Shown here piece by piece: positions 2,874 to 13,223 of a DNA stretch of 64,000 nt. Source of the DNA: Candidatus Poribacteria bacterium (GTDB lineage: Bacteria > Poribacteria > WGA-4E > WGA-3G); NCBI GenBank assembly GCA_003635315.1, contig PYJD01000023.1:62001-126000 (forward strand), written 5' to 3'. Below the pieces are notes generated by a model that was not told the DNA's origin, ran no database searches, and worked only from the letters and a program-made list of their open reading frames with translations. The position numbers were made by a program, and so were the translations under genes. How positions within the stretch are numbered: position 1 is the first letter of the stretch; each line of letters opens with the position of its first letter.

Positions 2874-4172
2874 ATGAAACGTTACCCTGAATATAAAGAG
2901 AGTGGCGTAAAGTGGATTGGGGGAATACCAAAGAATTGGGGAATAAAGCGATTAAAGTATGTTGCGGATTTAAACATGGGGCAATCACCACCTTCGGAAG
3001 AATACAACAGCGATCAGATAGGAACGCCTTTTCTTCAAGGCAATGCGGAGTTTGGACTCCATCATCCGATCCCGAAAATTTATTGTTCAACAGCAAAGAA
3101 ATACGCGATTCTCGGTGATATTTTGCTATCAATCCGCGCACCTGTCGGAGCAATCAACATCGCAAATCAAGAATATGGGATTGGTCGTGGTTTATGTGCC
3201 ATACGCCCCCAAACGAATCAACTTGAATGCCGTTATGCTAAGTATTTGCTTGAGGTTGTCCGTACTGGGTTACACGTCGTTGCGACTGGCAGCACTTACA
3301 ACGCTGTTACAGTAGATGATGTTTCTAATCTCGCTTGCGTTGTGCCACCATTTTCTGAGCAGATCCAAATCGCCAACTTCCTTGACCGAAAAACAGAACA
3401 AATACACCAACTCATCCGCTACAAAGAACAAAAGATAGAACTCCTACATGAACAACGCATAGCACTGATAAATCACGCAGTAACAAAAGGACTTAATCCG
3501 AATATAGAGATGAAACCATCTGGTGTGGAGTGGATTGGAGAGATACCAAAACATTGGGATATAATTAAGTTGAGATATTTGGGTGAATTACAAAATGGAA
3601 TTAGTAAGGATTCTGATTCATTCGGTTTGGGATACCCTTTCCTCAGTTATGGTGATGTGTATTACAATGAAACTTTACCCGCACACGTGGAAGGGTTGGT
3701 TAACTCAACGAAAGATGATAGAGAAAGATATTCTGTTTTAGAAAGAGATATTTTTTTTACCAGAACGTCTGAGACAATCGCAGAGATTGGAATTTCGTCT
3801 ACTTGTATTAAAACAATAGAGGATTGTGTCTTTTCTGGGTTCTTAATTAGGTTTAGGAATACTTCCAAGGTATTAACAAAAGAATTTTCTAAATACTATT
3901 TTCCTTCTCACTTACCAAGAATATTCTTAGCAAGAGAAATGAACATAGTTACTCGTTCTTCATTGAGTCAGGAGTTACTAAAAAGACTACCAGTTCTACT
4001 TCCACCTATAGATTACCAAAAAGAAATCGCTTCATTTCTTGATGAACAAACTCAAAAGATGGATTCTATGATTGAGAAAGAAAATAAACAGATCCAACTC
4101 CTCAAAGAATACAGACAATCCCTCATCTCAGAAGCAGTGACAGGAAAAATAGACGTCCGATACAAGGTTTAG
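2874..4172 (+). CDS. hsdS: Type I restriction-modification specificity subunit (solitary HsdS)
   Basis: HsdS recognises the target DNA sequence for type I methyltransferase and restriction complexes. The 432 residues show the classic two-fold layout. Target-recognition domain 1 opens with a G-V-K-W-I-G-x-I-P motif (about residues 11-19). A conserved helical spacer follows, with A-N-F-L-D-R-K-T and the coiled coil L-I-x-Y-K-E-Q-K-I-x-L-L-x-E (about 170-205). Domain 2 opens with G-V-E-W-I-G-E-I-P (about 215), and the second spacer runs from A-S-F-L-D-E-Q-T to A-V-T-G-K-I-D-V-R at the end. An AAGGTG ribosome binding site precedes the ATG. No hsdM or hsdR is adjacent: repeats lie on the left and a WD40 gene on the right. 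It is either an orphan that exchanges specificity with a remote system or the remnant of a lost locus; the reading frame itself is intact. Confidence 0.9.
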   Translation: MKRYPEYKESGVKWIGGIPKNWGIKRLKYVADLNMGQSPPSEEYNSDQIGTPFLQGNAEFGLHHPIPKIYCSTAKKYAILGDILLSIRAPVGAINIANQEYGIGRGLCAIRPQTNQLECRYAKYLLEVVRTGLHVVATGSTYNAVTVDDVSNLACVVPPFSEQIQIANFLDRKTEQIHQLIRYKEQKIELLHEQRIALINHAVTKGLNPNIEMKPSGVEWIGEIPKHWDIIKLRYLGELQNGISKDSDSFGLGYPFLSYGDVYYNETLPAHVEGLVNSTKDDRERYSVLERDIFFTRTSETIAEIGISSTCIKTIEDCVFSGFLIRFRNTSKVLTKEFSKYYFPSHLPRIFLAREMNIVTRSSLSQELLKRLPVLLPPIDYQKEIASFLDEQTQKMDSMIEKENKQIQLLKEYRQSLISEAVTGKIDVRYKV

Positions 4173-4447: not shown

Positions 4448-6421
4448 ATGAAAACCCAAATTATATTGATATTACCAATTATCAGTATTTACTTTGCAAT
4501 GAGCGCAATTTGTTTTGCAAGAGAATATATGGAAAATTATCTACCTAAAGGGGCAATTGCTCGTTTTGGAAAAGGTTATATATTTCACTTTGCATATTCA
4601 CCTGATGGCTCAAAATTGGCTGTAGCAAGCACTATCGGTGTATGGTTATACGATACTGAGACCTATGAGGAAGTGAAACTATTTACCGGAAATACGGATT
4701 ATCTCAATTTTGTCGATTTTAGTCCTGATGGAGGAACACTCATTCAAGTATTTTATGATTATGATACATCATCAACTCAGATTCAGACATGGGATGTATC
4801 TACAGGGAGTCTTATCTCTACACTTAATGAAAATACGAACGATTTCATCAAGACGGAGTTTTGCCCGAACAGTATATCTATAGCTGTTACAGATAGACAC
4901 GGTAAATCGATCTACCTCTGGAATCTAATCACTGAGGAAATGAAAGAACTTATTGGACATACCAGTGAAGTACAGAGAATAGCCTTCAGTCCAGATGGTA
5001 AGACATTGGCAAGTGGTGGAAAAGATGAAGAAATTCGTCTATGGGATGTAGAATCCGGAGTACTTAAACATACTTTTGCTGGACATGCACTTTCAATTGA
5101 ATCCCTGAAGTTCTCATCCGATGGAGAAATAATTGTTAGTCATGACGGTGATAACAACGTGTGTATATGGAATGCAAATTCTGGTGAATTAATACACATC
5201 ATTTCAGATTTTAAAGATGAAATTTCAGATCTTGATATTGCTGCGGATGGGAAGACGTTGGTGACTGCTAATTCAAATGGTCTTATCCAGACTCGGAATA
5301 TGTATACCGGAAGAAAACTTGATGAATTCAAATGGAATACACATGTAGAATTCGTTCAATTTTCTCCTGATATGAGAACCATCGCAGCATACGATGATAA
5401 GGGATGTACTCTTCTGTTCTCATCAAACGGTTTAGAACTACGACATACCTTAAAAATGATAGGTAGAGAATCTATAAATGACTTGGCATTCTCTCCTGAT
5501 GGAAGTATGATTGCAGCATCAAATGGATTCGACATTAACTTCTGGAATGTTGAAACTGGTGATTTAGTAGACTCAATTACAGGTTACTATGAAGTTGTCA
5601 AGGATGCATTGTTTATTCCAGGGCGTGATATTATTGTAAGTTGCGATAGAGGTGTAAGAATTTGGGATTTAAAGACCTTAAAACTACTAAAAACCGTGCC
5701 ATCTACAGAATCAGTTAGATGTCTTCAACTATCACCAAATGGAAATACCTTAGCATGTGGAAATTATGACAATCTTGTTCTACTTTTCGATGTAAATACT
5801 TGGTTGAAAAAATATACACTTAAGGGACATATTGATGGTATATCTTCAATAGCCTTCAGTCCAGATGGAAACACTATCGTCAGTAGCAGTTGGGATAGGA
5901 CAATACGATTATGGAATGTCCATACTGGAAAATACATTGCTACATTAAAAGGGGATACCACTGAACCTGAGTATGTGGTCTATAATTCTAATGGAAAGAA
6001 AATGTATAGTATTGATGATGGAAAGATACGCTGCTGGGATATAAATACACAGAGCATTGAAAAAACAATTGATTCAGGAGAAGATGAAATATACGCAATG
6101 GTATGTTCTCCAAATGGAAGGATAATTGTTAGTAGTATGGGTAAAAAGATTCTATTTTGGGATACTGATTCTGGTGAACTGAGAAAGAGCATCCCTGTTG
6201 AAACTTGGGTGAACGCCTTATCATATTCTCCAGATGGCAAAACAATTGCATGTGCAATATCTAATGGTGTTTCTCTCTATGATTCTGAGACAATGGAACT
6301 TAAAAAGTCATTTACTGGACATATTGGCTCAGTAAATTCAGTCTCCTTCTCTTCAGATGGAAAGACACTCGCATCAGCCAGTCGTGATAGTACTGTGATC
6401 CTATGGGATTTAAGCAAATAA
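4448..6421 (+). CDS. Exported WD40 double-propeller protein (657 aa)
   Basis: An N-terminal signal peptide (about residues 1-24, hydrophobic core ending A-I-C-F-A) sends the protein out of the cytoplasm. The rest is WD40 repeats: many copies of F-S-P-D-G-K-T-L-A-S followed by I-R-L-W-D, about 14-15 blades, enough for two seven-bladed propellers. The first blade opens with L-P-K-G-A-I-A-R-F-G and continues to I-G-V-W-L-Y-D. The same opening is found in the 6574-8469 protein and in the extracytoplasmic part of the sigma-factor fusion at 10524-13223, so the three are paralogous. Several blades lack the W-D dipeptide. The ligand is unknown; propellers of this type bind proteins or peptides. It stands in a same-strand run with the next gene 152 bases downstream. 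Confidence 0.88.
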   Translation: MKTQIILILPIISIYFAMSAICFAREYMENYLPKGAIARFGKGYIFHFAYSPDGSKLAVASTIGVWLYDTETYEEVKLFTGNTDYLNFVDFSPDGGTLIQVFYDYDTSSTQIQTWDVSTGSLISTLNENTNDFIKTEFCPNSISIAVTDRHGKSIYLWNLITEEMKELIGHTSEVQRIAFSPDGKTLASGGKDEEIRLWDVESGVLKHTFAGHALSIESLKFSSDGEIIVSHDGDNNVCIWNANSGELIHIISDFKDEISDLDIAADGKTLVTANSNGLIQTRNMYTGRKLDEFKWNTHVEFVQFSPDMRTIAAYDDKGCTLLFSSNGLELRHTLKMIGRESINDLAFSPDGSMIAASNGFDINFWNVETGDLVDSITGYYEVVKDALFIPGRDIIVSCDRGVRIWDLKTLKLLKTVPSTESVRCLQLSPNGNTLACGNYDNLVLLFDVNTWLKKYTLKGHIDGISSIAFSPDGNTIVSSSWDRTIRLWNVHTGKYIATLKGDTTEPEYVVYNSNGKKMYSIDDGKIRCWDINTQSIEKTIDSGEDEIYAMVCSPNGRIIVSSMGKKILFWDTDSGELRKSIPVETWVNALSYSPDGKTIACAISNGVSLYDSETMELKKSFTGHIGSVNSVSFSSDGKTLASASRDSTVILWDLSK

Positions 6422-6573
6422 ACCAAGTATAACTTCATCTGTATATCTAATATTTATAATGTAATACCATTTCTAATAAATATCATGACACATCAGCATC
6501 ATTGATAAAATTGAAATAATTTATACACTTTTCTGATATTGATCTAAAAACAAAACAATTGTGAGTAAAAAAT

Positions 6574-8469
6574 ATGAAGCTAATTAGACCACTAATCATT
6601 TCTCTTACACTAATTCCTATTGTATGTTGTATCAGTGTCTATGCTCAAGGATTAGAACAGATGAGTTTACCTGATGGGGCAAAAGCAAGAATCGGAAACG
6701 GAAGAGCAATCAAGGTTGTATATTTTCCGAATGCTAATCGAATTGCAATCGCATGCTCTATAGGTATATGGATATATGATCTACATACAGAAGAAACCAT
6801 AGATCTTCTAACAGGACACACAGGTCCTGTCAATTCATTAGTTTTCAGTCCTAATGGGAATATGTTCGCTACTGCCAGTGATGATAATTCCGTTCTGTTA
6901 TGGGATTCAAATACAGGAGCAAATATAGGGAGACTCATCGGACATCGGGATGATGTGAATGATGTTTCTTTTAGTCCTGACGGACAAATACTTGCTACTG
7001 CCAGTGATGATAATACGGTTGGGTTATGGAATATAAAAACAGGTGAAATGATAAATGCTATAAGAGGACATTCAGATAACGTGCTTACGCTGATGTATTC
7101 TATGGATGGTTCTATAATTGCCAGCGGCTCTTATGGTAACGGTTCCACTGTTTGTATATCAAATCCAAATTCACATGAAGTCTTACACGAAATATCTGAT
7201 GAACAATATGGTATACAAGATGTTGAATCTGTTGATTTCTTAAAAGGCAGTACCCTATTTGCAGTAGCAAGCTATGAAAAAATTAGTCTAATTGATGGAA
7301 TTACAGGAAAACTGATGAGTACTTGTCATGTAGAAAGTTGGATGGATCAAATTTATTCAGTTGAGTTCGCTCCTGATGGAAAGACGCTTGCAAGTGGAAC
7401 TGGCAACAATGGTGTATGTATTTGGGATGTTGCCACAGGAAAATTATCACAAGAGTTAGGAACAGACGATTCAGTTATATCTGTGACCTATTCTCCAGAT
7501 GGAAATACGCTTATTAGCGTAACCGAAGATGGGATTATACACTTTTGGGATCTGAAAAATCAAAAACTCACGAAGACAATTACAGATTTTTCCTTCTATA
7601 TATTTTCAATGGTGTTTTCGTCCGATGGAAAAACTCTTGTCTGTGGTAATAAGTCAAAAATATCTATCTGGAATCCTGAAACATTAAGTGAAATAAAAAC
7701 TATTCGAGGACAAAAAGGTCCAGTCACATCTCTTGCATTTTTACCTGATGAAGAAATTCTGACTTCTACTGATTCTAACCGTAGTCGCTTATGGGATACA
7801 AAAACAGGAAGATTTCTGGGGAGTTTTAAAGGACATAGAAGTAGAGTAAATTCGATCGCAATTTCTCATGATGGAAGGATGTTAGTAAGTGGAAGCCAAG
7901 ATAACTCTATTAGATTATGGGAAATTCGACCGGATGAACTATACATGATTGGAGAACAAATAGGTATATTGAAAAAACATACAAGGAGTATTACCTCTGT
8001 AGCATTATCCCCAGATGGTAGCACACTTCTCAGTGGAAGTTTTGATAATTCTGTTATGATATGGGACATCAATAGTAGAAATCTTATAAATACACTAAAG
8101 GATCACAACAATATTGTCTATACAGTAGCATTTTCACCTGATGGAAACACATTTGCAAGTGGGGATCGAGATGGACGGGTACGTTTATGGGATAGCAAGA
8201 CACAAGAACTCATAAGGACAATTAGAGCACCAACTTATTGGGTAGATTCCATGACATTTTCTCCTGATGGTAGGACGCTCTCATTTGGCAGTGATGATCT
8301 CGTAAATGTGTATGATTTGCAGTTAGAAGAAAATCTAAAAACATTCATTGGACATACCAATTTAGTGAATAGTCTCGTCTATTCTCCAGACGGTAAAATC
8401 CTTGTAAGTAGCTCCAGGGATGGAAGCATACTATTCTGGGATCTTTCTAAGTTGGTTGATGATAGATAG
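6574..8469 (+). CDS. Exported WD40 double-propeller protein (631 aa)
   Basis: This is a second secreted WD40 protein. A signal peptide covers about residues 1-24 (ending V-Y-A-Q-G), followed by about 14 blades carrying the F-S-P-D-G...L-W-D signature, consistent with two seven-bladed propellers. It shares the family-specific opening L-P-D-G-A-K-A-R-I-G and I-G-I-W-I-Y-D with its neighbour at 4448 and with the sigma-factor fusion, as expected of tandem duplication. Blades with the GHT/GH dipeptide before S-V-x-F-S-P-D-G are better preserved here than in the 4448 protein. No enzymatic motif is present. The role is probably protein binding in the periplasm or at the surface; the partner is unknown. 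Confidence 0.88.
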   Translation: MKLIRPLIISLTLIPIVCCISVYAQGLEQMSLPDGAKARIGNGRAIKVVYFPNANRIAIACSIGIWIYDLHTEETIDLLTGHTGPVNSLVFSPNGNMFATASDDNSVLLWDSNTGANIGRLIGHRDDVNDVSFSPDGQILATASDDNTVGLWNIKTGEMINAIRGHSDNVLTLMYSMDGSIIASGSYGNGSTVCISNPNSHEVLHEISDEQYGIQDVESVDFLKGSTLFAVASYEKISLIDGITGKLMSTCHVESWMDQIYSVEFAPDGKTLASGTGNNGVCIWDVATGKLSQELGTDDSVISVTYSPDGNTLISVTEDGIIHFWDLKNQKLTKTITDFSFYIFSMVFSSDGKTLVCGNKSKISIWNPETLSEIKTIRGQKGPVTSLAFLPDEEILTSTDSNRSRLWDTKTGRFLGSFKGHRSRVNSIAISHDGRMLVSGSQDNSIRLWEIRPDELYMIGEQIGILKKHTRSITSVALSPDGSTLLSGSFDNSVMIWDINSRNLINTLKDHNNIVYTVAFSPDGNTFASGDRDGRVRLWDSKTQELIRTIRAPTYWVDSMTFSPDGRTLSFGSDDLVNVYDLQLEENLKTFIGHTNLVNSLVYSPDGKILVSSSRDGSILFWDLSKLVDDR

Positions 8470-8573
8470 ACTGACAATTATGAGTTAAAATGGACACTTT
8501 ACCGAAAGTACTTCAATCAAATTCCAATACACAGTTATATTGCAGATGGAACAATTAAATAGGATATTCTTAT

Positions 8574-9425
8574 ATGAAAAACAACATATATCTATTTATT
8601 CTCTCAATCAATATCAGTTTATTTCTAATAAATTCATCGATTGGATCTATAATTACAGATGGACTTGTAAGCTATTGGACATTTGATAATGAGCACATTG
8701 TGGATAAAACAGCTAAAGATGTATGGGGTGACAATAACGGTAAAATCAACGGGAATCCTAAGCTTGTTAACGGTAAAGTAGGAGAAGCACTCGAATTCGA
8801 TGGTGCAAAGGATTTTATTAACCTAACCACACTTGGGGATTTTGGGAGAAAAATGGGTACATCTACCTTTGAAGCATGGATAAAAACAAAGAACAACAAT
8901 GATTGGATGAATCTGGTCAATACCCATGGTATAGAATGTCCGTTTTGGGGAATACAACTGAATGGATTGAAAAGTAAAGATGCATTTAGACGTGGTCGTG
9001 GAATGATGTTTTTTATCAATAGTGTTGAGCGAAAGAGAGCATGTTCTGCATATTTTATCGGTAATAACATTAATTTTTATGATGGCGAATGGCATCATAT
9101 TGTATATATTAATGAACTTAATCTTGAAGATGGAAAAACTAAAGAATTTGTCTATATAGATAGTATAGCTCACGGTTCTATCCATGGTTCATTTGGGAAT
9201 GATTGGATAACTTTACAATTTACCGAACCTGTTCATCTTGGTGTAAGTAATTTTGAGGGAAAGACGGAAGGATTTTTTGAAGGTATGATTGATGAAGTCC
9301 GATTCTATGATCGTTCTCTTAAACTTGAAGAAATAAGACATAACTATGAATCAACTGCACCCTTTAACGTTGAGCCAAATGGGAAATTGCCAACAGTATG
9401 GGGTGCTTTGAAGAAAAAATTCTAA
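8574..9425 (+). CDS. Exported LamG/concanavalin-type jellyroll protein
   Basis: The 283-residue protein has a signal peptide (about 1-25) and one LamG-3 type domain. It shows the standard landmarks: G-L-V-S-Y-W-T-F-D-N near the start, G-E-A-L-E-F-D-G-A-K-D-F-I at about 65-77, F-E-A-W-I-K in the middle, W-H-H-I-V-Y at about 180, and I-D-E-V-R-F-Y-D-R-S-L near residue 245. These domains bind carbohydrate or act as adhesive modules; no catalytic residues are evident. The last 14 residues (G-K-L-P-T-V-W-G-A-L-K-K-K-F) resemble the C-terminus of the next protein, a possible shared sorting signal. It lies between the exported WD40 genes and the sigma-factor fusion on the same strand. Confidence 0.85.
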   Translation: MKNNIYLFILSINISLFLINSSIGSIITDGLVSYWTFDNEHIVDKTAKDVWGDNNGKINGNPKLVNGKVGEALEFDGAKDFINLTTLGDFGRKMGTSTFEAWIKTKNNNDWMNLVNTHGIECPFWGIQLNGLKSKDAFRRGRGMMFFINSVERKRACSAYFIGNNINFYDGEWHHIVYINELNLEDGKTKEFVYIDSIAHGSIHGSFGNDWITLQFTEPVHLGVSNFEGKTEGFFEGMIDEVRFYDRSLKLEEIRHNYESTAPFNVEPNGKLPTVWGALKKKF

Positions 9426-9513
9426 GATTATATCATATTACATTCCAATTATCCTGATTATACCGAAATTAATGACCTAAAACCCCACTATTCTAATTCA
9501 TATCAATCAATAA

Positions 9514-10332
9514 ATGAAGTATTTATTTTCTCTTATAATATGTCTGATGTCCCTATGTCAATTTTCAATTTCTGGGACTTATGTCGATACGTTTGAGGAT
9601 CGTAGATTGTCAGATTGGAAAGATGTTAACGTAAATGACTCTCGACCTGTCAACTGGAAAGTTTCCAATGGAGAAGTCCATGTCGAAAGTAAAGATAACA
9701 ATACTCGGATACTCGTTCTAAAGGATACAGAATGGACAAATTATGAGGTAGAGTTGAGTGTGATGCCTCTCAAAAGACATGGACACGGACACATTGTTCT
9801 GGCTTCAAGAGTTACACTAACAAGAGCCATTGTTTTTACCATAGGAGATATATTCTGGAATGCTCCAATACCCATTGCTACAGGAACAATTCTCAACTTG
9901 GAAAATGGAAAATTAGAGGGAACTCCGTTGCAGTTCGCTAAGATACGAAATCTTCAAAATGGTAATAAATTTCAAGTTAAGCTTGATGATATAGTACGGA
10001 TTGGTGTAGATCTGCAATGTAATAATATACATCCATACCCATTTCTAAAATTACATGAGTGGACACATCTAAAACTAATGGTCAGTGGGGACCTATTTAT
10101 GTTCTGGATAAATGAGACATTAGTTCTAAATACAAAATGTAATTTAGCACATTTGGCATTTCTTAAAGGTGACCTTGTCACCGGAAGCATCGGATTTGGC
10201 ATTGCAGGTTATACTGCTTTATTTGACAATTTTGTGGTTTCAGGTGAGGAAGTACCAAACCGAGGCAGATTGCCTGTACGACCACAAGAGAAACTTGGAC
10301 TCACATGGGGAAAATTAAAAGTGGGTCGATGA
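9514..10332 (+). CDS. Exported DUF1080/3-keto-disaccharide hydrolase-like jellyroll protein
   Basis: The 272-residue protein has a signal peptide (about 1-20) followed by one beta-sandwich domain. It opens with T-F-E-D-R-R-L-S-D-W, then N-W-K-V-S-N-G-E-V-H-V and W-T-N-Y-E-V-E-L-S-V-M-P, and ends with G-S-I-G-F-G and A-L-F-D-N-F-V-V-S-G-E. That order of landmarks is typical of DUF1080/LamG-like domains found in carbohydrate-active secreted proteins. Whether it is catalytic cannot be told. The tail (E-K-L-G-L-T-W-G-K-L-K-V-G-R) matches the tail of the 8574-9425 protein in spacing and key residues (K-L-x-x-x-W-G-x-L-K), although the domains in front differ. Confidence 0.75.
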   Translation: MKYLFSLIICLMSLCQFSISGTYVDTFEDRRLSDWKDVNVNDSRPVNWKVSNGEVHVESKDNNTRILVLKDTEWTNYEVELSVMPLKRHGHGHIVLASRVTLTRAIVFTIGDIFWNAPIPIATGTILNLENGKLEGTPLQFAKIRNLQNGNKFQVKLDDIVRIGVDLQCNNIHPYPFLKLHEWTHLKLMVSGDLFMFWINETLVLNTKCNLAHLAFLKGDLVTGSIGFGIAGYTALFDNFVVSGEEVPNRGRLPVRPQEKLGLTWGKLKVGR

Positions 10333-10523
10333 TTTCTCTGATAACCTACCTATCTAATCTTGAATGTAATAATTCCACTTATACTTGATAATCTTGATTA
10401 TGAGAATATGAAATTGTTGGGAAAAATAGTTTCGTAACTTCTCAATTATGACACGATTGCAACCCATCAATCACTAAAAAGCGTCACCTAAATGTAACAC
10501 CTAAGTAAACTGAGGCAAAAAAT

Positions 10524-13223
10524 ATGGAAGAAAATTATTCTGAACTAATCCAAAGAACATTGTCTGGAGATGAAACAGCCTTTACAATATTAGTTCTGAA
10601 ATTCCAAAAAGGCATACATGCGCTCGCTTGGAAGAAAATCGGAGATTATCAGATAGCCGAAGAGATAGCTCAAGACACATTCCTAATGGCATATAAAAAA
10701 CTTCATACACTGAAAAATCCACAACAATTCCCCGGGTGGATATATGTAATTGCTGATAGACTTTGTAATACATGGCTAAGAGAAAAATCTAAGAGGATGC
10801 AATCACATGAAATTACTGATGCAATTATTGAAGACACCTCATATTCAAAATATATATGTCAAGAAAGGGAATATGATGCAATTGAGCACAGACGTCATAT
10901 CGTACAAAAACTCATGGAAAAACTACCTGAAAGTGAACGCACTGTTATGGTTCTACACTATCTGGGGGAAATGAGTTGTAAGGCTATTAGCAGATTCTTA
11001 GGTGTATCTCCAAACACAATCAAGAGTAGACTTTCACGCGCAAGGAATCGATTAAAGAATGAAGAAGCACTTATTAAAGATACGTTTGAAAGCATACATA
11101 TATCTGACAATTTTTCTGAAACTGTCATTAAACAGATTGAGAAGATACACCCAAATTCCCCAAACCATTTCAAACCTATGCCATGGGGGATTGTCGCCAC
11201 CTCTACAGTAATTTTCATTTTTTTATTTGGTATGGGTAATCAAATCATCACTCCATATCAAAACACATATAATGTTGAAGCACAATCTGATTCGTCTATT
11301 GAAATTATTGATGCTCAAATAGTACAAGATATACGACCATTGCCGAAAGTAGAAAATCGAAATGGAAATAATACACAGGAAGGGCGAAATATGAATGAAG
11401 GTAAATCAGGAATGGCAGAAAACCAACATAATAACCACATAGATGATTCTATGCAGTGGAATTTACCCAAGGATGCTATAGGACGTTTGGGTAGGGGTGG
11501 GATAAGAGATATATTGTATTCTCCCGACGGATCAATGATAGCTGTCGCAGGTAAAATCGGTCTTTGGTTTTACGATACATCTACTTATGAAGCAATAGAT
11601 ATGATCCCTGTTGATTCTACAGAGTTTAATTGTTTATCCTATAGTGCTGATGGGAATTTCTTTGCAGCAGGTGATAGAAAAGGAACCATACATTTAGTAA
11701 ATAACAAAACTGGAGATAAAACAGAAATAAACGCGCATACAAGTTGGGTGAATGGTCTTTCCTTCAGTCCGGATGGTACCATCCTGGCAAGTGCTGGTCG
11801 TGATTTTATTATTCAGCTCTGGGATGTTAATACTGCTAAACATATTAAAACACTTAAAGAAACAAAGGCAGAAATTCAATGTATTACCTTTAGTCCTGAT
11901 GGCAACACGTTGGCAAGTGGAGATGATGGTGTAATTCGTTTTTTCGATATCAATAGTGACAATGAAAAAACTATTAATGCTCATACCAGTTGGGTAGATG
12001 ATCTATCTTACAGTCCTGATGGTAAATCAATAATTAGCATAAGTGATGATGACGCTATATTCCTATGGGATGTCAATACACTACAGAATAAGAAGATGTT
12101 CGATGGACCAGTTGAAGGCTATCCTATTTCTGTGGATTATAATCAAGATGGGAGGATTATCGCAACTGGAGGTGCGGATAATATAGTACATATATGGCAC
12201 GGTCCTACAGGTGAATATATTACATCGTTCTCAGAATCGAACACAGAACATACATCGTTTATTGTGAGTGTAGTATTTAGTCCGGATGGAAAAACGGTAG
12301 CAAGTGCATCTGAAGATGGTTCTATACGATTCTGGGATATAGCTTCGGGAACACTGAAGAATGCACTCACTGGACACATACATTCTATCTATTCAGTTGC
12401 ATTTACTCCGAATGGCACGCAATTAATTAGTGCTGATGGAGATCAAACACTAAGTATTTGGAATATAGAATCCAGAAACCTTGTAGATACCATTATGAGT
12501 GAGTATGAATTAGATAGAGTTGTATTTAATCAAAATGGTGATATTATTGCTGGTGGTGGAGGAGCAATCGTTCTTATCAGTAAAGATAATCCAGAACAAC
12601 AGAGAGTACTCACAGAAGTTAAGAAAGGTCTTCACAGTTTTGAGATTACATCTGATAGGGAAACTTTTGCAACTGGTCATGAAGACAAAAACATCTATTT
12701 ATGGGATTCTAAAACAGGGAAGCTTAAGAAAACACTTTCTGGTCATACTGATTATGTCTATAGTACTGCATTTAGTCCAGATAATTCCCTTTTAGCAAGC
12801 GTTAGTGATGATAAGACTGTCCGACTTTGGGATGTTGAAACCGGGACTGAAAAGAGATTATTCGACGAACATACAAAAGGGGTTAAGGAGGTAACATTTA
12901 GTCCTGATGGAAATACGCTTGCAAGTGGAGATGGTGAAAAAACCATATATCTGTGGGATCTTAAAACTGGTGAGAAAAAGATGACTCTTAAAGGACATTC
13001 CGATTGGGTGTTCTGTTTGGCTTACAGTCCTAATGGTAATATACTCGCAAGTGCGGGTGTTGACAAGCTCATCAATCTATGGAATCCTATATCAGGAGAG
13101 AAATTAAAAACCTTTACAGGACATACTGCTTGGATTAGACATATCGCATTTAGTCCTGATGGGAGTATATTAGCAAGCACAGGTGACGATGGAACAATAC
13201 TTCTATGGGAAATTGAATATTAG
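10524..13223 (+). CDS. ECF-type sigma factor fused to a membrane helix and WD40 propellers
   Basis: This 899-residue protein starts as an ECF sigma-70 factor. Region 2 lies at about residues 8-90 (A-E-E-I-A-Q-D-T-F-L, P-G-W-I-Y-V-I-A). Region 4 lies at about 125-182, with L-P-E-S-E-R-T-V, the helix-turn-helix and S-R-L-S-R-A-R-N-R-L-K. One hydrophobic segment follows at about 221-238 (W-G-I-V-A-T-S-T-V-I-F-I-F), then a low-complexity linker and about 14 WD40 blades (312-899). Topology would place the sigma domain in the cytoplasm and two seven-bladed propellers outside. The propeller opens with the same L-P-K-D-A-I-G-R-L-G and I-G-L-W-F-Y-D motif as the exported proteins at 4448 and 6574. ECF-WD40 fusions have been reported in Planctomycetes. 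It probably senses an extracytoplasmic signal directly, with no separate anti-sigma gene beside it. Confidence 0.92.
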   Translation: MEENYSELIQRTLSGDETAFTILVLKFQKGIHALAWKKIGDYQIAEEIAQDTFLMAYKKLHTLKNPQQFPGWIYVIADRLCNTWLREKSKRMQSHEITDAIIEDTSYSKYICQEREYDAIEHRRHIVQKLMEKLPESERTVMVLHYLGEMSCKAISRFLGVSPNTIKSRLSRARNRLKNEEALIKDTFESIHISDNFSETVIKQIEKIHPNSPNHFKPMPWGIVATSTVIFIFLFGMGNQIITPYQNTYNVEAQSDSSIEIIDAQIVQDIRPLPKVENRNGNNTQEGRNMNEGKSGMAENQHNNHIDDSMQWNLPKDAIGRLGRGGIRDILYSPDGSMIAVAGKIGLWFYDTSTYEAIDMIPVDSTEFNCLSYSADGNFFAAGDRKGTIHLVNNKTGDKTEINAHTSWVNGLSFSPDGTILASAGRDFIIQLWDVNTAKHIKTLKETKAEIQCITFSPDGNTLASGDDGVIRFFDINSDNEKTINAHTSWVDDLSYSPDGKSIISISDDDAIFLWDVNTLQNKKMFDGPVEGYPISVDYNQDGRIIATGGADNIVHIWHGPTGEYITSFSESNTEHTSFIVSVVFSPDGKTVASASEDGSIRFWDIASGTLKNALTGHIHSIYSVAFTPNGTQLISADGDQTLSIWNIESRNLVDTIMSEYELDRVVFNQNGDIIAGGGGAIVLISKDNPEQQRVLTEVKKGLHSFEITSDRETFATGHEDKNIYLWDSKTGKLKKTLSGHTDYVYSTAFSPDNSLLASVSDDKTVRLWDVETGTEKRLFDEHTKGVKEVTFSPDGNTLASGDGEKTIYLWDLKTGEKKMTLKGHSDWVFCLAYSPNGNILASAGVDKLINLWNPISGEKLKTFTGHTAWIRHIAFSPDGSILASTGDDGTILLWEIEY

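Follow-up and report, generated by a model that had tools for sequence, protein, structure and literature searches.

A predicted membrane-tethered ECF sigma factor with a WD40 double propeller, and a family of sigma-sensor fusions with exchangeable sensors in the Poribacteria

The locus and the fusion gene

The window is the whole stretch of DNA that was analysed, 64,000 nucleotides of a Candidatus Poribacteria contig. Within it, four genes for exported proteins precede a long gene at 10524-13223 on the same strand. Identities are given to the locus L023, which carries an ortholog of the long gene.

4448..6421, + strand: exported WD40 protein with a signal-peptide-like N terminus; 74% identical in L023; possible partner
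6574..8469, + strand: exported WD40 protein with a signal-peptide-like N terminus; 78-80% identical in L023; possible partner
8574..9425, + strand: exported LamG-type jellyroll protein; not a conserved partner; at least 30 relatives per genome, absent from L023
9514..10332, + strand: exported 3-keto-disaccharide-hydrolase-like jellyroll protein; not a conserved partner; absent from L023
10458..10490, + strand: predicted ECF-type promoter for 10524-13223; -35 TGCAACC (10458-10464), -10 region GCGTCACCTA (10481-10490)
10524..13223, + strand: fusion gene, predicted membrane-tethered ECF sigma factor with a WD40 double propeller, 899 aa
10590..10793, + strand: sigma region 2, residues 23-90; Pfam PF04542 (Sigma70_r2) above the curated cut-off
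10899..11057, + strand: sigma region 4, residues 126-178; Pfam PF08281 (Sigma70_r4_2, residues 126-177) above the curated cut-off
11055..11177, + strand: conserved linker, residues 178-218; two predicted helices, no Cys, KPxxPW-like end; from the family alignment
11178..11234, + strand: transmembrane (TM) helix, residues 219-237, predicted N-in/C-out from hydropathy and charge in 148 members
11256..11330, + strand: juxtamembrane motif YQNTYNVEAQSDSSIEIIDAQIVQD, conserved and predicted outside the membrane; from the family alignment
11457..13220, + strand: WD40 double propeller, residues 312-899; predicted extracytoplasmic; variable sensor

The product of the fusion gene is a single chain of ECF sigma regions 2 and 4, one TM helix, a stalk and a WD40 double propeller of approximately 14 blades. 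Sigma regions 2 and 4 are found without other sigma70 domains, as in ECF sigma factors, with PF04542, PF08281/PF04545 and TIGR02937 all above cut-off. WD40 repeats fill the C-terminal two thirds of the protein (Pfam, E = 6.3e-108). Thirteen blades are recognised by the blade model, while the AlphaFold model (15 sequences, mean pLDDT 69.7) has strands from residue 327 to 896, with room for approximately 14, and its best PDB matches include tandem seven-bladed propellers. The arrangement described in an earlier note on this DNA, with sigma regions, one hydrophobic segment and a double propeller in one chain, is thus borne out by Pfam, hydropathy, the blade model and AlphaFold. The same note had seen no anti-sigma gene nearby, and none is present among the Pfam-scanned neighbours. 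A zinc-finger anti-sigma domain inside the linker was considered and ruled out, there being no cysteine in residues 182-240 and no Pfam match.

Membrane topology

There is only one hydrophobic segment in the protein, at residues 219-237. A segment with a mean hydropathy of at least 1.6 is present at this position in 145 of the 148 members of the family described below and is therefore not due to chance. The flank on its N-terminal side is the more positive in 144 of the 148; across all members, net charge averages +1.7 over the 15 residues before the TM segment and -2.3 over the 40 after it. This charge pattern predicts that the sigma factor is cytoplasmic and the sensor extracytoplasmic. In both AlphaFold models residues 211-292 form a linker of low confidence that is separate from the folded domains. 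The models thus do not bury the hydrophobic segment in a soluble fold, although membrane insertion is not thereby proven and they contain no confident TM helix. Hydropathy and charge in the 148 members support a membrane-tethered ECF sigma factor whose propeller lies outside the cytoplasm, the topology being a prediction.

Three sigma fusions in the source genome, in L018 and L014, have no TM segment, and the core can therefore also work in the cytoplasm. The L018 fusion (6649-9261) is a sigma-WD40 protein adjoining a WD40 protein (4469-6478) that has no signal peptide. These two have a common opening, PVGSFEGDxTTWALP, and the compartment of the neighbour is that of the fusion. In L014 (4562-8262) two adjoining ECF genes have the family's sigma factor and a cytoplasmic TPR-like C-terminal part.

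A family of sigma-sensor fusions

The source genome (4.3 Mb) contains 39 sigma2 matches, many of them within very long frames. Seventeen of its proteins, including that of 10524-13223, have one common core of approximately 290 residues, in the order sigma2, sigma4, linker, TM helix and juxtamembrane motif. The family consensus is ISPxLTENIMxEIsrxKPxxPxGSKPxxPW for the linker and FQxPYSLdAqSExSVEIvDApIVqd for the juxtamembrane motif. The sensors after the core differ; WD40, BNR/sortilin-type propeller, LRR and C-type lectin sensors are found in the source genome, and kelch, thioredoxin, Ig-like and uncharacterised domains are added in its relatives.

A search with the part of the core that runs from the end of sigma4 through the juxtamembrane motif found it in all 58 genomes searched of the taxonomic family, with 1 to more than 50 copies per genome (top counts at least 51). 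Numbers fall to 0-3 copies in related families of the order, and elsewhere in the phylum the segment is absent. Across 84,980 species scanned, the best 77 loci were all from Poribacteria. On a quick tree of the cores, in which 49 of 140 branches are weak, there are at least 11 changes between WD40 and BNR sensors, compared to 33 when the labels are shuffled. Sensors therefore move between cores, but not freely. The family is specific to the Poribacteria, with the same switch and swappable sensors.

The ortholog in L023 shares 72% identity with the fusion over the core and 77% over the sensor. This, together with a conserved promoter and the many intact copies across genomes, makes it very improbable that the reading frame arose by chance or is a decaying, non-functional fusion, even though the source genome also holds anchored copies lacking sigma regions as well as short family members.

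The anchored copies without sigma regions begin at the linker (L010 7592-11128 and 16037-19507, and L011 868-3702) and have no sigma remnants upstream. They are possible co-receptors or decoys beside the full fusions. Sensor matches of 79-90% to an apparently sigma-less ORF in L028 were set aside, this being an ECF gene broken by a run of N. Four tandem ECF-BNR fusions are present in L009 (3502-16759), and longer arrays occur elsewhere, such as the approximately ten within 40 kb of contig C16 of genome G024. Such arrays suggest expansion through tandem duplication.

The ECF promoter

The predicted promoter of the fusion gene has the layout GCAACC-N17-CGTC, approximately 65 nt upstream of the ATG, and is kept in L023. 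A motif was derived from 146 upstream regions of family genes against 613 of other genes from the same loci. It reads ATtATGCA(A/C)CctTT - 12/13 nt - gCGTCAcTa. In most cases the -35 is 50-80 nt upstream of the ATG, and many family members have a nearly identical consensus. A weight matrix gives matches for approximately 80% of family genes, against 2.4% of the other genes and none of 584 shuffled sequences; as the matrix was trained on family genes, the first of these values is a fit and the other two are its controls.

Pattern searches that were blind to gene positions gave 10 hits in the source genome, against 0 for the reversed pattern, and 67 against 1 in 33 genomes. Where the downstream ORF was readable, 25 of 30 sites run directly into a family gene. 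These genome-wide scans used exact patterns, by which weak sites are missed. An AAC-like -35, a CGTC-like -10 and, usually, autoregulation are the marks of an ECF promoter, and the motif and its covariation with the sigma factors point to all of these.

Covariation of sigma factor and promoter

Residues of the sigma factors that are expected to contact DNA vary together with bases of the promoter 5' of their own gene. The -10 C is present with R86 in 91 of 95 cases and with other residues in 0 of 19. The base before CGTC is not G in 30 of the 31 cases with D83 and is G in 69 of the 70 with A, T, S or N83, while the third position is A with M, R or K83 (9/9). With T165 and S168 the -35 has CA (99/99); with A165 and N168 it has AG or TG (8/8). 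After background correction the sigma4 recognition helix covaries with -35 positions and sigma2.3/2.4 with -10 positions, not crosswise. On the basis of this covariation, T83 and R86 of the 10524-13223 protein would read the -10, and its recognition helix (residues 162-172) the -35.

Five simple rules are true in 556 of 585 cells, compared to a mean of 455 and a maximum of 490 when promoters are shuffled within genomes. The rules were taken from the same data, and the shuffling is therefore a control for linkage and lineage rather than an independent test. Phylogeny-controlled pairs for R86, which are few, go in the same direction (about 5 to 0).

Since the contact residues match the gene's own promoter almost one-to-one, also within single genomes, it is most likely that each sigma factor activates its own gene, and activation from 10458-10490 is strongly supported on these sequence grounds. 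It is improbable that the whole family is under the control of one or a few master sigma factors, with the fusions being mainly surface proteins or acting on other promoters. The nearly common consensus does make cross-activation between close paralogues likely, but promoter variants follow the contact residues of the adjacent sigma factor within genomes and on separate branches, which would not be expected under a master regulator.

Neighbouring exported WD40 and jellyroll genes

When each locus is counted once, 15 of 23 ECF-WD40 genes have an exported WD40 gene no more than 6 kb away, compared to 5 of 50 ECF genes with other sensors (Fisher P = 2.6e-6). This value is somewhat optimistic, because several loci share a genome, and a stricter permutation of whole loci gives only P = 0.05. 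With this qualification, the suggestion of the earlier note that exported WD40 paralogues would co-occur with such fusions has held. For the jellyroll genes it has not. LamG genes are near 3 of 23 ECF-WD40 loci and 5 of 50 others, and 3-keto-disaccharide-hydrolase-like genes near 1 of 23 and 7 of 50, which is no difference; with both also missing from L023 and the LamG type so numerous in each genome, they were rejected as conserved partners. The L023 locus has both exported WD40 genes and a third, with a trypsin-TPR gene instead of jellyrolls between them.

A common ECF promoter for the five genes, as the note had envisaged, was not found; the ECF gene is the only one of them to carry it, and of 49 exported WD40 genes elsewhere and here one has such a promoter, which is not at this locus. 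The opening motif of the propeller is indeed common to the fusion and the proteins of 4448-6421 and 6574-8469, as noted earlier. It is equally general to poribacterial WD40 proteins, being carried by 31 of 36 ECF-WD40 sensors, by 33 of 40 WD40 proteins of other kinds and by the majority of proteins in WD40 clusters elsewhere in the genome, and so was discarded as a marker of local partnership. An origin of the exported neighbours as recent duplicates of the sensor is likewise not supported, as they are approximately 30% identical to it and the local neighbour ranks 23rd of 49 non-ECF WD40 hits.

Gene order suggests that the exported WD40 neighbours are probably partners, kept beside the fusion and, here, outside its promoter. 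The fuller proposal, that they share ligands with the sensor, compete with it or dimerise with it in a self-contained locus that includes the jellyrolls, is unlikely. Co-occurrence at the 15 loci and retention in L023 speak for it, as does a local sigma-less homologue at some loci with other sensor types. Against this stand the unassociated jellyrolls, the separate promoter, the generality of the motif, the low identity of sensor and neighbours, and the 8 of 23 ECF-WD40 fusions without an exported WD40 neighbour.

The local sigma-less homologues of non-WD40 sensors are at L016 6584-10077, L092 2347-6066, L093 8532-11932 and, in both L067 and L072, around 8700-11330; three of them are the best match in the whole set. 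The WD40 cluster extends beyond the window, with three more exported double-propeller genes 1-8 kb upstream of it (L130 7914-14747). Other clusters of exported WD40 genes, on contigs C31 and C36, have no ECF family gene within the stretch read. Inside the cluster at 2874-4172 of the window there is a lone type I restriction specificity subunit, for which no methylase or endonuclease subunit is present among the ORFs at 1-17 kb.

Proposed mechanism

The fusion is probably a one-protein transmembrane switch, in which a tethered sigma factor is released upon a signal and activates its own promoter, with sensors that can be swapped. The cytoplasmic sigma factor would be tied through the linker and the single TM helix, in the predicted topology, to the WD40 double propeller outside, and is assumed to be inactive while tethered. 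The sigma factor would be set free when the propeller senses a signal, which may be a polymer or a protein ligand. By analogy with IutY (see below), the most likely route is cleavage in the conserved juxtamembrane or TM region, with a site-1 protease and a site-2 protease of the RseP type as the enzymes. The freed sigma factor would then act with RNA polymerase on the promoter at 10458-10490, giving positive feedback. Genes that follow in the same operon at some loci, and a few distant targets, may be further outputs. Divergence of the paralogues in both sensor and promoter specificity would make the circuits parallel and partly insulated.

A site-2 protease gene is present in the source genome, and likewise in every control genome. 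The model of the core is closer to the closed, anti-sigma-bound forms of SigW-RsiW and CnrH-CnrY than to forms bound to RNA polymerase, a weak hint from modelling that the linker may help to keep the sigma factor closed. Its helices (residues 178-190 and 197-208) have a pLDDT of 82-88 in the AlphaFold core model. Such well-predicted helices and the closed-like model mean that the linker could hold the sigma factor closed directly, and they leave some room for a second, less probable reading. Here the sigma factor would be active while tethered, a ligand altering conformation or clustering such that sigma2 and sigma4 are exposed to RNA polymerase at the membrane, and proteolysis is not needed. 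The family also has no conserved neighbour that codes for a dedicated protease, the trypsin-TPR gene being found in L023 only. However, IutY and ECF52, the nearest studied layouts, are activated by proteolysis or thought to be (PMC8999054), and the juxtamembrane motif outside the membrane is easily read as a cleavage region.

If each member of the family targets mainly its own gene, a genome would hold tens of self-sustaining, possibly bistable switches whose chief output is a surface propeller or lectin. These bacteria would then vary their surface in a combinatorial way, sensors and promoter specificities having diversified jointly. We put this forward as a speculation that is unlikely to be right.

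Comparison with known systems

ECF57, for example in Singulisphaera acidiphila, has WD40-like repeats C-terminal to an ECF sigma factor, which have been taken as an interaction extension (PMC8999054). The fusion resembles it in having an ECF sigma factor and C-terminal WD40-like repeats in one chain without a separate anti-sigma factor, a C-terminal WD40-like extension being among the features of ECF57. The review mentions neither a TM segment nor sensor exchange for ECF57, whereas the predicted TM helix of the poribacterial fusion puts the repeats outside and the sensors vary among paralogues. In ECF57 two conserved cysteines link sigma2 and sigma4. C81 is conserved in the poribacterial family, and the fusion also has C152, at a position that is not conserved.

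The actinobacterial ECF52 protein SCO4117, with a carbohydrate-binding sensor domain, and ECF48 and ECF53 have an ECF sigma factor, a TM segment and an extracytoplasmic sensor (PMC8999054), likewise in one chain. These contain a zinc-finger anti-sigma (ZAS) domain and extensions of up to ~400 residues; the poribacterial fusions have no ZAS domain, propellers of ~600 residues and dozens of paralogues. In IutY (ECF243) a sigma factor is also joined to a membrane-bound regulatory part, and cleavage with Prc and RseP has been shown to activate it (PMC8999054). IutY differs in its fused anti-sigma part and in belonging to cell-surface signalling by a siderophore; the poribacterial fusion has no anti-sigma domain, and there is no TonB-dependent receptor among its scanned neighbours.

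The SigI/RsgI sets of cellulolytic clostridia comprise 8-16 paralogous sigma factors per genome. Each is autoregulated, has a promoter specificity of its own and is coupled to its own extracellular sensor module (PMC6056542). The likeness lies in paralogous, autoregulated sigma factors with their own promoters and differing outside sensors. In the clostridial sets the sigma factor (SigI, of a non-ECF type) and the sensor/anti-sigma factor (RsgI) are separate proteins, while the poribacterial version is one ECF chain, in another phylum and in more copies. There is no RsgI-like membrane anti-sigma factor in the operon; the single chain has no anti-sigma gene among its scanned neighbours.

Abundant eukaryote-like WD40 proteins have already been reported from Poribacteria, with no mention of sigma factors (PMC3909097). 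No description of poribacterial sigma-sensor fusions was found in the literature searched, which is weak evidence of novelty. Relative to known systems, the new parts are the scale of the family, its exchange of sensors and its promoter code. Fused sigma-sensor proteins have been known mainly as scattered cases, and here a single lineage-wide chassis carries interchangeable outside sensors in up to at least 50 copies per genome. Natural variation provides a readable residue-to-base code for ECF promoters, linking R86 to the -10 C, position 83 to the adjacent bases and the sigma4 helix to the -35. This code is testable in E. coli, with no culture of the source organism needed, and is a route to predicting regulation in uncultured Poribacteria.

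Downstream genes and other predicted targets

No distant target of the 10524-13223 sigma factor was found in the exact-pattern promoter searches. Genes for a sugar ABC transporter start 200 nt downstream of the fusion gene. A gene on the same strand less than 100 nt downstream, often for an exported protein, follows 33% of family genes and 41% of other genes, so there is no excess; genes lying this closely downstream could be induced by read-through.

For another family member a distant target is predicted. A TonB-dependent receptor gene (L165 6115-8403, - strand) has a promoter at L165 8422-8453 that is nearly identical to that of a BNR-type ECF gene on a different contig, in L019. Residues D83, R86 and R171 of the L019 sigma factor fit the receptor promoter, and the receptor gene is therefore a candidate for its regulation.
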